A stretch of DNA of 64,000 nucleotides, from the NCBI RefSeq assembly GCF_001939115.1, contig NZ_MQTZ01000021.1:1-64000 (forward strand), in the 5' to 3' direction. Both the position numbers and the translations under genes were made by a program. The notes below the pieces were generated by a model that saw nothing but the letters and a program-made list of their open reading frames with translations, was not told the origin of the DNA and searched no databases. This document shows, piece after piece, positions 5,457 through 63,658 of the stretch. Origin of the DNA: Leptolyngbya sp. 'hensonii' (GTDB taxonomy: Bacteria > Cyanobacteriota > Cyanobacteriia > GCF-001939115). How positions within the stretch are numbered: position 1 is the stretch's first letter; each line of letters starts with the position of its first letter.

Positions 5457-6538
5457 GGATTTTCGCTCTCCACAACGTGCGATTCAATCACCTGCAAGTA
5501 GGCACTTGCGACGGCTGCTCGCCTGTGACGGGCCAGATGGAGGGGAGCCTGCGCTTTACAGGCAACCCAAACATCCGGGTTGGTCAATAGAGTAGCAAGA
5601 GTTTGGGTGAATGCACCAAGGTCTTCGTTAGGAAATGTAAAGCCCGCTGGACCGATCGCATCGGTTAGCCCACCCCCGGCTGAACCCACCACGACACAAC
5701 CACAGGCCATCCCCTCCAGGGCCACGATACCAAAGGGTTCTTCCCAGCGGGAAGGCACCACCAAAATCCGGTGGGCATTGAGCAATTGCACCAAGTCTTC
5801 CCCGACTTGCGTGCCAACGAAAGTGACCTGATCTGAGAGTCCCAATTGGATAGTCTGTTGCCGCAACCGGCTCTCCTCTGGGCCACTGCCAATAATCGTC
5901 AATTGCGGGTGTAGGTCCTGATTACGCAGGGCAGCCAGGGCATCTAGGAGCAGGTCCACCCCTTTGTCCGAAACCAAGCGGCCCAGAAAGACCAACTCCC
6001 GATCGCGACGCACCGCTGGCAATTCCCGGAACAGGTCATCCCGATAGGGATTGCCCACCACGGTCGAAGGACTGGGCAGATGGTCAGCGATCGCCTGACT
6101 GGCACTGATATTGGCGGCAAACCGGGTGAGCTGATACTTGAGGGCATCCTGCCAGGCCACCCGGCCATCCAGGCGGCTATACCAGGACTGGTGCATGATC
6201 ACCAGAGGCTTGCGGCTGAGGAACCAGGGCCAGATTCCTTTCAGGCTGACATTAGCCATGAAATAAACCTGGGTCTGTCGCACCAGAGCCAGTAACTCCC
6301 CCTGGGAGGGACAGCGCACCACCCTAAACGGGAAGGGGGTGTGGCCGGGATCGGGGGTCCGGGTCACGATGGTCACAGCATGTCCCCGCGCTACAAACTC
6401 ATGGGCCAGGATGGAGACCACCGTCTCTGTCCCCCCCACACTGGGATAGAACAGAGGGGCATGGATTAGAATCCGCAGCGATCGCCGGGGGCCAGATTTG
6501 ACCGTGATCGGACGGCTGGGGGAGGGAGCGGGGGACAT
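5453..6538 (-). CDS. Glycosyltransferase family 4
   Basis: A 361-aa GT-B protein starting at the ATG at 6538 (MSPAPSPSRPITVKS). An in-frame extension to 6676 would run into the coding region of the upstream methyltransferase and is rejected. After a short disordered proline/serine leader comes LRILIHAPLFYPSVGGTETV, the GT4 acceptor-side loop. The donor side has LVFLGRLVSDKGVDLLLDAL and EX7E in EPFGIVALE followed by GMACGCVVVGSAGGG. It ends in a 4-nt overlap with the polymerase-like gene. The role is sugar transfer during glycan assembly; linkage is unknown. Confidence 0.9.
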   Translation of the reverse strand: MSPAPSPSRPITVKSGPRRSLRILIHAPLFYPSVGGTETVVSILAHEFVARGHAVTIVTRTPDPGHTPFPFRVVRCPSQGELLALVRQTQVYFMANVSLKGIWPWFLSRKPLVIMHQSWYSRLDGRVAWQDALKYQLTRFAANISASQAIADHLPSPSTVVGNPYRDDLFRELPAVRRDRELVFLGRLVSDKGVDLLLDALAALRNQDLHPQLTIIGSGPEESRLRQQTIQLGLSDQVTFVGTQVGEDLVQLLNAHRILVVPSRWEEPFGIVALEGMACGCVVVGSAGGGLTDAIGPAGFTFPNEDLGAFTQTLATLLTNPDVWVACKAQAPLHLARHRRAAVASAYLQVIESHVVESENP

Positions 6539-55972: not shown

Positions 55973-57643
55973 ATGTCTGCGTTTGAGAGTCCATGCCTGA
56001 GCATTGCAGTGGCACCACTGCTGGCCGCAGGCCCGAATAACTATGCCATCTGGGTTTTGAAGGCCCCGTCGCCGGGGGGCTTCGTTCACCATGACTGCGT
56101 CTGGCCTGAGCCCTTAACCCAGACCTGGCATGCATGGCAGGAGATGTTTTCCCTCCGAGGGTTGCCTAATGTGCCACGTGTTTCCTCGGTAAGCGTCTCT
56201 CCCCTGGTGGAACTCCCTTCTCTGGATGCGAATCCGGCTGCTTTTCCGCCTCAGCAAATTGGATTGACCGGTCGCCTGATGCAACACTTGGGAACCAGTC
56301 TGTGGCAATGGTTGTTGGGTGGGCCAATTCAGAGTAGCTTCGACCAGAGCCAGGGCATTGCGATCGGGCAGAATAAGCCGCTACGCCTGCGCCTGGAAAT
56401 TCGCGATCCAGATCTGGTGGCCCTGCCTTGGGAAATCATGCAGCCCCAGTCCGGTAAACAGGCGATTTCTCTCAGTCAACAACTGCTCTTCAGCCGCACC
56501 ACCACGGCGGTGGATCCGCTGCAACCCCTGCGAATTGAGCAGTCCCTCAAAATCCTGCTGGTGTTGGGACAGGATGTGGATACCCTGACCGGAAACTCGG
56601 GGCCCCTGCGGGCCAGTGGCGCTGTTTTGCAATTGGAACAGGAAGCCAGCACCTTGGCCCAAGTCCTGGAGAATTGCTGCCATCCGGAATCCATGACCAG
56701 TCGATCGGTGATCCCTGTTCCCTGTCGGGTTGATACCCTGGTGCAACCGACGCCAGCCGAACTCACCCAACACCTGGAGACGGGGCAATACAATATCCTG
56801 TTCTATGCTGGTCATGGGACGCCAGCCCCCGATGGTGGGTTGCTCCTGTTGCGCTCCGATACGAAAATGAGTGGAACGGAACTGGCCCAGGTTCTGACCC
56901 GTTGTCGAGTTACCCTGGCAGTATTCAATGCCTGCTGGGGAGCCCAACCCGACCATGATGGGGAAAAGGCCATTCCTCGAAGTAGTTTGGCGGAGGTCTT
57001 GGTTCACCATGGGGTGCCAGCGGTGTTAGCAATGCGGGACTCGATCGCTGACCAGGAAGCCCTCAGCTTTATCCAGGCGTTTGCCCAGGCCCTGGCGGAG
57101 CGGGTGCCGATCGATCAGGCTGTAGCCGTAGCCCGACAACATCTGCTCACCCTCTACAAATTTAACCAGCCTGCCTGGTCTTTGCCGGTGCTGTATATGC
57201 ATCCGGAATTTAATGGAGAACTGGTCAGGCCCGTGGAGGAGGGGATGACGGAACTCCCCACCAACCCCAGCTATGGTTGGCAGCATCCAGTAGCAGCCCT
57301 GAGGCTGCTGGGGTCTACCACCAGAGTCTGGCCGATTCAGGGCGGTTTGATTCGGGTGGGTCGTAAGGGTGAGAATGATCTGGTGATTCAGGAACAGTGG
57401 GTCTCTCAGAAGCATGCGGAGATTTTCTGCCGGGATGTTTTTGCTGAAGGGGCAGTGGTCCCCACCTATTTCCTGCGAGATTTTTCCCGCTATGGCACGC
57501 TGGTATTAGGACCTGGTGGCTGGCAGAAAGTGCATCACCAGGAAGTTCCCCTCCAGTCGGGGACGCAATTAAAGTTTGGCAGTTCCCAGGGGCAGGCCCT
57601 GGAGTTTCTGATCGAAACGCCCCTGATCCCTGATGATGTCTAG
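55973..57643 (+). CDS. CHAT protease-like protein with C-terminal FHA domain
   Basis: A 556-aa soluble protein. Residues about 130-410 are a CHAT (caspase HetF-associated) domain with the dyad His281 in FYAGHG and Cys321 in VFNACWGAQ; HHGVPAVLAMRDSIADQEAL follows. Residues about 450-530 are an FHA domain, with LIRVGRKGENDLVI and WVSQKHAEIF (Ser478/His481) positioned for phosphothreonine binding. No signal peptide is seen. Phosphopeptide binding may steer a caspase-like protease. Its stop is shared with ackA (CTAG). Confidence 0.88.
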   Translation: MSAFESPCLSIAVAPLLAAGPNNYAIWVLKAPSPGGFVHHDCVWPEPLTQTWHAWQEMFSLRGLPNVPRVSSVSVSPLVELPSLDANPAAFPPQQIGLTGRLMQHLGTSLWQWLLGGPIQSSFDQSQGIAIGQNKPLRLRLEIRDPDLVALPWEIMQPQSGKQAISLSQQLLFSRTTTAVDPLQPLRIEQSLKILLVLGQDVDTLTGNSGPLRASGAVLQLEQEASTLAQVLENCCHPESMTSRSVIPVPCRVDTLVQPTPAELTQHLETGQYNILFYAGHGTPAPDGGLLLLRSDTKMSGTELAQVLTRCRVTLAVFNACWGAQPDHDGEKAIPRSSLAEVLVHHGVPAVLAMRDSIADQEALSFIQAFAQALAERVPIDQAVAVARQHLLTLYKFNQPAWSLPVLYMHPEFNGELVRPVEEGMTELPTNPSYGWQHPVAALRLLGSTTRVWPIQGGLIRVGRKGENDLVIQEQWVSQKHAEIFCRDVFAEGAVVPTYFLRDFSRYGTLVLGPGGWQKVHHQEVPLQSGTQLKFGSSQGQALEFLIETPLIPDDV

Positions 57644-61900: not shown

Positions 61901-63658
61901 ATGCCTGAAGCTCAAACCTCTCATCAACTGACCCATTCCATCTCGGCAGCGGAGCCTACTCCCACGCAACCTGTGAAAAAGGTTGGGGGTGTTCAAGGAG
62001 GATTCTTTTTTTACAAAATCCTGACTTTTTATTCTAAATATCGCTTACTAACTGCGTTTAGTCTTGTTTTGATTGGCATTATCTCGCTGGATATTCTCTT
62101 CCATGATTATGTCTTTCAAAATCTGATTAGAAATCTCCAAACTCTGCTTCAGGGGCCATTAATTCTGCCGGATCAGATGGATTTGAGTTTTGCACCTGAG
62201 GTTTGGTTGTCAGTGGTTGGGATTTCTCTAGGGACTCTAATTATTGTTATTTCAATTGCTGCTCAAAGCATTCCAAAAATTGTAGATGTATACATGCAGG
62301 ATTGGATTAGCCTGTTTTACATCTGGTTTCTAGTGCTGGCAGGAATCCATGCTGTTTTTATTAAACTCTACAATGAGATAATTTTTCTCCGTCCTGCCAG
62401 TGTGATTCTGAATATTTATATCTTCTTGCCCATCGCGATTGTTCTGACATTGCCTTATATCTTTTATATTTTGCAATGTACCCAGCCCAAAAATGTCATT
62501 AGAAGGATATTCCGGAATCATTTAAATCAGATTCATGATTTGACCCATCGTCGGATTTATAGGTTGCTCAATATTGATGTTTTTATCGAAGAAACTCAGG
62601 ATAATCTTTTTCAATCTTTCAACCAATTGGATAATTTGCTGGAATATGTGCCGTTGAAGGAGGCGAAAGCTCAAATTATCCAGGATATGAGCTCTTTGGT
62701 TCAGGAATATATCACCCTTAAAACCTCAATTAACCCAAACTTCTTTAAGGTTAGTACGAGAGTTCGAGCTGATATTTCCTTCAAAACTATGATTGGTCAA
62801 TTCAAGGAAATGGAACATACTCGGACCTTTTATGAACAGAAATGTTTTCGGGTTTTGGGAAATACATATGTTCAATTTTTAGAGCAAAATGAATTCGATC
62901 TGGCCTCACTCTGTGGTTCGGAAATGGATCGGGTGGGGCAGATGGCTCTCAAGATGGGAGATGATCGACTGCTCGATGTGATCATCATGCGTTTCAATAC
63001 GATGATGCGATTTGCCTTGAAGCATGGGGTGAAAAATAATGAAGCACGGAATCTATACAATGCTGCATTTCACTACCGCAACTTCATTGAAAATCTGGTC
63101 AGATATAAGAAAGTGGAACATTCAAAGCGCAGCTTTGCCTACTTAAGACTGTATGGTACAGAGATATTTAAGTATGGCCGCACAAGCCCATCCATGTACT
63201 TCATTGTGGATGTTTTTGCTGCGGAAATGAAGCGAATTCTTATTCTTGTATATCAGGAAAATTGGTCGCTAGAAATTCAAAGCGAAATGCTAAATGAAAT
63301 GCTTCAGATCGATAGCTATCCGGATTTCAAGGAAATTGATTCCGATCGGGAACAACTAGTTAATACGGGGGTCAGGGTTCTCCAAATAGGCTTGGGACTG
63401 TTCTATCTGCGGCACAATAATATTGATTTTGTTGAACGAATTATCCAGGATATTCTGGCTGATTTAGATTTCTTGGGGGAGGTAACCTTCCGGCGAGGGG
63501 TGGAGTTGACCTGTAATCGATTGCGACTCTCTAACCCAAATTTTTGGGAAGATACCGATCGGGGAAGCCTGAATCTGTACTACACCCCTGATCAAGACCA
63601 GATCGATCGGTTCTTAGAACTGTTTCATGAGCAAATGAAGCGCCATCTCTCCCATTAG
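61901..63658 (+). CDS. Membrane protein with large cytoplasmic domain, unknown function
   Basis: A 585-aa protein. Four hydrophobic segments lie in the first 200 residues (LTAFSLVLIGIISLDILF, VWLSVVGISLGTLIIVISIA, WISLFYIWFLVLAGIHAVFI and ILNIYIFLPIAIVLTLPYIF). The remaining 380 residues are soluble and helical, with charged coils. The fold is not recognised; DUF2254-like topology is a weak impression. Its codons are clearly more A/T-rich than those of neighbours, which may indicate transfer. Confidence 0.75.
   Translation: MPEAQTSHQLTHSISAAEPTPTQPVKKVGGVQGGFFFYKILTFYSKYRLLTAFSLVLIGIISLDILFHDYVFQNLIRNLQTLLQGPLILPDQMDLSFAPEVWLSVVGISLGTLIIVISIAAQSIPKIVDVYMQDWISLFYIWFLVLAGIHAVFIKLYNEIIFLRPASVILNIYIFLPIAIVLTLPYIFYILQCTQPKNVIRRIFRNHLNQIHDLTHRRIYRLLNIDVFIEETQDNLFQSFNQLDNLLEYVPLKEAKAQIIQDMSSLVQEYITLKTSINPNFFKVSTRVRADISFKTMIGQFKEMEHTRTFYEQKCFRVLGNTYVQFLEQNEFDLASLCGSEMDRVGQMALKMGDDRLLDVIIMRFNTMMRFALKHGVKNNEARNLYNAAFHYRNFIENLVRYKKVEHSKRSFAYLRLYGTEIFKYGRTSPSMYFIVDVFAAEMKRILILVYQENWSLEIQSEMLNEMLQIDSYPDFKEIDSDREQLVNTGVRVLQIGLGLFYLRHNNIDFVERIIQDILADLDFLGEVTFRRGVELTCNRLRLSNPNFWEDTDRGSLNLYYTPDQDQIDRFLELFHEQMKRHLSH

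Follow-up and report, generated by a model that had tools for sequence, protein, structure and literature searches.

Architecture of the CHAT-FHA protein

Our analysis of the window, i.e. the whole stretch of 64,000 nucleotides from Leptolyngbya sp. 'hensonii' that was examined, did reveal a single open reading frame encoding a protein in which a CHAT domain is followed by an FHA domain. The gene and its features are listed in Table 1. An earlier note on this DNA had described such a fusion, and the fusion is real, since both domains score above their Pfam cut-offs (CHAT with 85.7 bits against 24 and an E value of 5e-24, FHA with 44.4 bits against 20.7 and an E value of 2e-11). They are the sole domains of the protein that do so. 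In an AlphaFold2 model of moderate confidence (mean pLDDT 71.6) the CHAT part (residues 189-421) has its best fold match in activated SAVED-CHAT (8tl0; Z 18.1 over 190 residues, rmsd 3.2 A). The modelled FHA part (residues 437-550) likewise matches the fold of EmbR (Z 15.3, rmsd 2.0 A over 98 residues), MEK1, GarA and OdhI, at Z 14-15.

Table 1. Coordinates of the CHAT-FHA gene and of its features within the window.
Feature	Position	Strand	Basis
CHAT-FHA protein, 556 aa	55973..57643 (stop codon counted)	+	Single ATG open reading frame; Pfam; orthologues at 46-73% identity
N-terminal region, residues 1-100	55973..56272	+	AlphaFold2; conservation; without Pfam match
CHAT domain (caspase-like cysteine protease), residues 105-397	56285..57163	+	Pfam PF12770
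His281, putative catalytic His	56813..56815	+	Alignment of 105 sequences
Cys321, putative catalytic nucleophile	56933..56935	+	Alignment of 105 sequences
Thr426-Glu-Leu-Pro429 linker motif, candidate phosphorylation site	57248..57259	+	Conservation; low pLDDT
FHA domain, residues 460-536 (Pfam)	57350..57580	+	PF00498; structural match of residues 437-550
Arg464, expected phosphate-contacting Arg of FHA	57362..57364	+	Alignment
Ser478-Gln-Lys-His481, S-x-x-H motif of FHA	57404..57415	+	Alignment
Tyr507, replaces canonical Asn of FHA 'NG' turn	57491..57493	+	Alignment to MEK1 and DUN1 FHA

Residue conservation was read from an alignment of 105 sequences, namely the window protein and 104 orthologues from cyanobacterial genomes. 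The CHAT dyad, which the earlier note had called intact and had numbered correctly, is under strict constraint: His281 within YAGHG and Cys321 within FNACWG are invariant (105/105), far beyond chance, and none of these sequences shows the loss of the dyad that had been named, for close homologues, as counter-evidence. The surroundings of the dyad are also strongly conserved, with Y278, G280, N319, W322 and A324 found in all 105 sequences and G282 in 104 of them. The N-terminal region had been left unassigned before and stays so, as residues ~1-100 do not match any Pfam family. This region is conserved in the orthologues, below the level of the CHAT domain, and AlphaFold2 predicts three strands and a helix for residues 8-59 and a low-confidence stretch for residues 62-96. 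By eye it resembles the N-terminus of HetF; this assignment was unsupported by hhalign and by shuffled global alignments and was rejected.

The two domains are joined by a linker of variable sequence, in which residues 422-436 have a pLDDT below 50 in the AlphaFold2 model. The linker carries a T-x-[L/I]-P motif with an invariant Thr426 (105/105), a hydrophobic residue at position 428 (105/105) and Pro429 in 103 of the 105 sequences, and a motif of this kind is missing from the sequence that follows the CHAT domain in two HetF-type relatives (L130 and L135). Mycobacterial kinases may prefer an acidic residue at -3 and Pro at +3 around the target Thr, a preference that would fit E423...T426...P429. 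Self-binding FHA switches are established in the GarA and OdhI families, and, by analogy, a single invariant Thr adjoining the FHA domain is what such a switch would be expected to look like. Self-binding via Thr426 and guidance to substrates by the FHA domain appear equally likely, and a structural role of Thr426, packing on the CHAT domain, is possible as well.

Distribution and gene neighbourhood

CHAT-FHA orthologues, at 46-73% identity, were found in 145 of 291 cyanobacterial genomes that represent an even draw from the class. CHAT-FHA is thus a widespread and conserved cyanobacterial family, which is related to HetF but distinct from it. A total of 80 named cyanobacterial CHAT-FHA loci was retrieved, and neighbouring genes were clustered for 74 named loci with long flanks together with the window. 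A frequent gene order consists of an NdhM-like gene, a PP2C phosphatase, CHAT-FHA, a partner gene, a convergent FHA-PrsW gene and a peptide deformylase. Specifically, the commonest upstream neighbour is the gene for a PP2C Ser/Thr phosphatase, which lies on the same strand within 1.2 kb in 35 of 65 loci (median gap 137 bp), and the partner gene follows downstream on the same strand within 1.2 kb in 64 of 73 loci (median gap 143 bp). The phosphatase has a PP2C domain by Pfam and NCBIfam, a weak zinc-ribbon match and a predicted membrane segment. Its linkage to CHAT-FHA could in part be inherited synteny; the NdhM-like and deformylase genes border this block as well.

The earlier note had proposed that Ser/Thr kinase signalling is coupled to proteolysis, and had suggested the gene neighbours, e.g. 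kinases and effectors, as the place to look. A phosphatase and a partner do recur there, but no kinase gene was found as a recurrent neighbour of CHAT-FHA; the window genome has 42 matches to Hanks-type kinases. A caspase-like enzyme is probably linked to Ser/Thr phosphorylation here, because the dyad is strictly constrained, the FHA fold is clear and adjacency of a PP2C gene is common.

The FHA-PrsW gene lies convergent and downstream of CHAT-FHA and the partner in 22 loci (L039:8918-10351 and 21 more). The encoded protein joins an FHA domain to an intramembrane protease of the PrsW type, a second FHA-protease fusion in the block.

The conserved neighbourhood is lost in the window genome, where CHAT-FHA stands alone, with the partner gene on contig C5 and the PP2C gene on contig C52. 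Nine neighbouring genes in the window were compared with 109 orthologous loci, 29 of which have short flanks only. None of the nine, among them the genes for a LysR regulator, a TrpD2-like protein, an acetate kinase and a DUF4912 protein, was found near any of these loci, and they were rejected as functional partners. The acetate kinase gene is convergent with CHAT-FHA, and the stop codons of the two genes overlap by 4 bases (57640-57643). Further downstream, positions 61901-63658 encode a 585-aa protein with hydrophobic segments near the N-terminus and without a Pfam match even at an E value of 0.1. The PP2C protein of the window genome (L129:4987-7350) starts with a four-Cys prefix that resembles the one in cyanobacterial kinases, and an unassigned stretch of ~200 residues before its phosphatase domain gives the impression of what may be a decayed kinase domain.

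A co-inherited partner protein

The partner is a helical protein of ~205 residues that does not belong to any Pfam family and has a negligible NCBIfam match. Its predicted fold has no significant match in the PDB, which does not make the fold new. A profile search of the 291 genomes detected both genes in 143 and neither of them in 144; 2 genomes have CHAT-FHA alone and 2 the partner alone. The two genes are hence concordant in 287 of 291 genomes, although presence clusters by family, so that the genomes are not independent, independent events are far fewer than 291, and a Fisher test of the association should not be taken at face value. Within one genus (g10), one genome lacks both genes (G009) and another one has both (G058). 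Concordance was also found in 58 of 59 relatives; the control profiles applied to these 59 genomes (PP2C in 51 and FHA-PrsW in 39, with CHAT-FHA in 31) were much less concordant. FHA-PrsW, of which the window genome has no orthologue, was accordingly rejected as an obligate partner.

Linkage of the two genes was observed in 118 of the 143 genomes, and in 25, including the window genome, they are unlinked or on different contigs. The partner gene of the window genome (L128:7728-8327) stands alone between tRNA-dihydrouridine synthase-like and peroxiredoxin-like genes and has been retained far from CHAT-FHA. The four exceptions to co-occurrence can be explained by decay or assembly gaps. One of these genomes (G080) is 79% complete, and another one (G284) is 72% complete and has a partner fragment at a contig end. 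In the third (G181) ~140 bases separate the end of the CHAT-FHA gene from a contig end, in the direction in which the partner gene would be expected. In the fourth (G036; L131, C16:50000-60000, 6199-6342) what is left of CHAT-FHA is a piece of its FHA part interrupted by several stops, immediately upstream of the intact partner gene, and the PP2C, partner and FHA-PrsW genes are still in place around it. This genome represents a natural protease knock-out in which the partner is kept. The partner has outlived the decay of CHAT-FHA and is therefore not strictly dependent on it.

Taken as a pair, CHAT-FHA and the partner point to a two-protein signalling module that is apparently uncharacterised. 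A search of the open-licence literature returned no paper on the CHAT-FHA family or on the partner, in agreement with the previous statement that this architecture is not a characterised system.

Proposed mechanism and alternative explanations

The explanation that we favour, with a probability of roughly 0.45, is that CHAT-FHA is a soluble CHAT cysteine protease that is switched, in its activity or in its access to the substrate, by Ser/Thr phosphorylation via its own FHA domain and works together with a dedicated helical partner. The observations behind this are the architecture, the constraint on the dyad, the FHA fold, the co-inheritance, the PP2C linkage and the invariant Thr426; catalysis, phosphopeptide binding, cis docking and contact between the two proteins are inferred, and so is the following sequence of steps. 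A Hanks-type kinase would phosphorylate a Thr, for which Thr426 in the linker is the best candidate, and the FHA domain would then bind phosphorylated Thr426 in cis, in the manner of GarA or OdhI; alternatively, the FHA domain would bind a phosphothreonine on another protein. Docking of the FHA domain would then reposition or expose the active site of the CHAT domain, and His281 and Cys321 would perform a limited cut, the partner being the substrate of the protease or, alternatively, a regulator dedicated to it. Finally, the switch would be reset by the PP2C phosphatase that is often encoded upstream. The partner itself does not contain an invariant threonine and is therefore not an obvious ligand of the FHA domain. 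More tentatively, these proteins might form a whole caspase-like pathway under phospho-control, composed of a Hanks kinase, PP2C as the phosphatase, a CHAT-FHA protease that is gated by its own phosphorylated Thr426, and a partner of a new family that is cleaved or exerts control. We regard this wider reading as rather doubtful; if true, the pathway would amount to a chromosomal Craspase counterpart outside CRISPR, triggered by phosphorylation rather than by RNA.

A more specific version of the favoured explanation, which is compatible with it, is modelled on Craspase, where Csx29 cuts Csx30, its dedicated partner, at one site only and needs H615 and C658 to do so (PMC10028731). Recruitment by the FHA domain upon phosphorylation would activate the CHAT domain for one cut in the flexible N-terminal part of the partner, and the stable C-terminal helical domain would thereby be released as an effector. 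The near-complete concordance of the two genes is in line with such a relationship, as is the AlphaFold2 model of the partner, in which a C-terminal helical domain is predicted with confidence and the N-terminal half is of low confidence. However, this N-terminal half contains a conserved YPWNP segment that could be a docking site, and an inhibitor or a cofactor would equally be expected to be a dedicated partner. Cleavage of this kind is possible, though we would not count on it.

It is also conceivable that the partner is an inhibitor or chaperone that, like a securin or an antitoxin, holds the protease inactive or folded until phosphorylation brings relief. The strict co-inheritance and the frequent co-directional adjacency of the two genes speak for such a role, and in Laspinema loci (L092, L093 and L099) the partner gene is still linked to CHAT-FHA, even though it is located upstream rather than downstream. 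Retention of the partner after the decay of the protease gene in G036 argues against such a role, as do the genomes with unlinked genes, which are unusual for an antidote, and we consider this explanation unlikely.

A different objection concerns the FHA domain, which might be a scaffold for interaction or localisation that has lost phosphothreonine binding, in which case the protease, if active, would be controlled otherwise. The window protein has G463, R464, S478, H481, D503, S505, G508 and T509. The canonical Asn of the FHA 'S-x-N-G-T' motif, however, is Tyr507 here, in a register that was confirmed by alignments to the FHA domains of MEK1 and DUN1. This position is Y in 62, F in 26, N in 11 and W in 6 of the 105 sequences, i.e. 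aromatic in 94, and Arg464 is missing in 25 of the 105. For these two reasons the previous mention of apparent phosphothreonine-binding residues went somewhat too far: in the window protein it holds for the usual contacts Arg464 and Ser478 and for the structural His481 and fails for the Asn, and in some lineages binding may have become weak or disappeared. Moreover, Thr426 is invariant even in the sequences without Arg464, and the proposed cis-docking step is thereby weakened. Against a general loss of binding stands the conservation of the remaining residues, with Ser478 and His481 of the S-x-x-H motif each present in 104/105 sequences and G463, D503, S505 and G508 invariant or nearly so. Furthermore, Arg479, beside Ser478, is found in all 25 sequences without Arg464, compared to Arg or Lys at this position in 16 of the 80 with Arg464. 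Since Arg464 was lost only ~3 times on the tree, and always inside one clade already carrying Arg479, this exchange is only suggestive and was discarded as proof of selection for phosphate binding. Human NBS1 has an aromatic residue at the same turn of its FHA domain and still binds phosphopeptide. The FHA domain of CHAT-FHA is thus likely, though by no means certain, to bind phosphothreonine, and we consider a pure scaffold unlikely.

CHAT-FHA could furthermore be a soluble offshoot of HetF, the cell division and heterocyst protein of Anabaena/Nostoc, and act in the same process, i.e. cell division or morphogenesis, instead of in a separate pathway. The HetF model (NF045509) is the only NCBIfam match of the protein (167.4 bits against a cut-off of 1200, residues 105-422 on model positions 72-388 of 836), and four HetF-type proteins are 34-35% identical to CHAT-FHA in this CHAT region and have the dyad at the same positions. 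HetF has been described as a putative protease and component of the divisome, the function of which is abolished by mutation of the active site (PMC8406250). However, the score of CHAT-FHA is far under the HetF cut-off. CHAT-FHA also lacks a transmembrane segment (best 19-residue hydropathy 1.43, at the N-terminus), unlike the four HetF-type relatives, in which values of 2.0-2.5 are reached after the CHAT domain, and HetF-type proteins also occur in genomes without CHAT-FHA and partner (G009, G018, G019, G035 and G049). For these reasons CHAT-FHA is not HetF. It differs further by an FHA domain in place of the HetF C-terminus, by the Thr426 motif and by the dedicated partner gene, and recognisable division genes were not found among its neighbours. 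A shared process is, in our view, improbable. A role in defence was dismissed, as a weak PADLOC match to SAVED_CHAT (residues 252-385, 22 bits) was the only hint in this direction.

Comparison with known systems

CHAT-FHA resembles Csx29, the TPR-CHAT protein of the type III-E CRISPR Craspase, in its CHAT His/Cys protease, in its dedicated partner and by structural match. Pfam searches of the CHAT-FHA protein and eight neighbours detected neither Cas7-11 nor TPR, and the control input, which is RNA in Craspase, would here be phosphorylation. The SAVED-CHAT proteins, to which the modelled CHAT part is most similar, differ in having a SAVED domain, which CHAT-FHA lacks, and in lacking its C-terminal FHA domain; they occur in scattered islands, whereas the distribution of CHAT-FHA is family-wide and core-like.

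A parallel to the proposed input is found in GarA and OdhI, with which CHAT-FHA shares the predicted FHA fold (Z ~14), a candidate phosphothreonine near the FHA domain and possibly binding in cis. A further example is DgcB of Bdellovibrio, the FHA domain of which is complexed with its own phosphorylated N-terminal peptide. In CHAT-FHA, unlike in GarA, OdhI and DgcB, the FHA domain is fused to a protease, and cis binding of Thr426 is putative. Separase, a member of the caspase-like clan with a dedicated binding partner and phospho-control, is among the Foldseek structural matches of CHAT-FHA, but it is very different in size and context and has no partner in common with it.

CHAT-FHA would be a CHAT protease with a dedicated partner, for which phosphorylation is the likely input. 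To our knowledge, very few dedicated substrates of bacterial caspase-like proteins have been described so far, and the activating switch of most of these proteins is not known. The conserved fusion, the phosphatase neighbour, the invariant linker Thr and the co-inherited partner make both input and output testable in model cyanobacteria. They also provide a clean functional prediction for the partner, the family of which has no entry in Pfam and is not meaningfully matched in NCBIfam. The window genome (5.9 Mb) has 33 CHAT-domain matches in all; several of these lie in open frames of more than 1200 aa, and some are clustered (contigs C12, C44 and C63).
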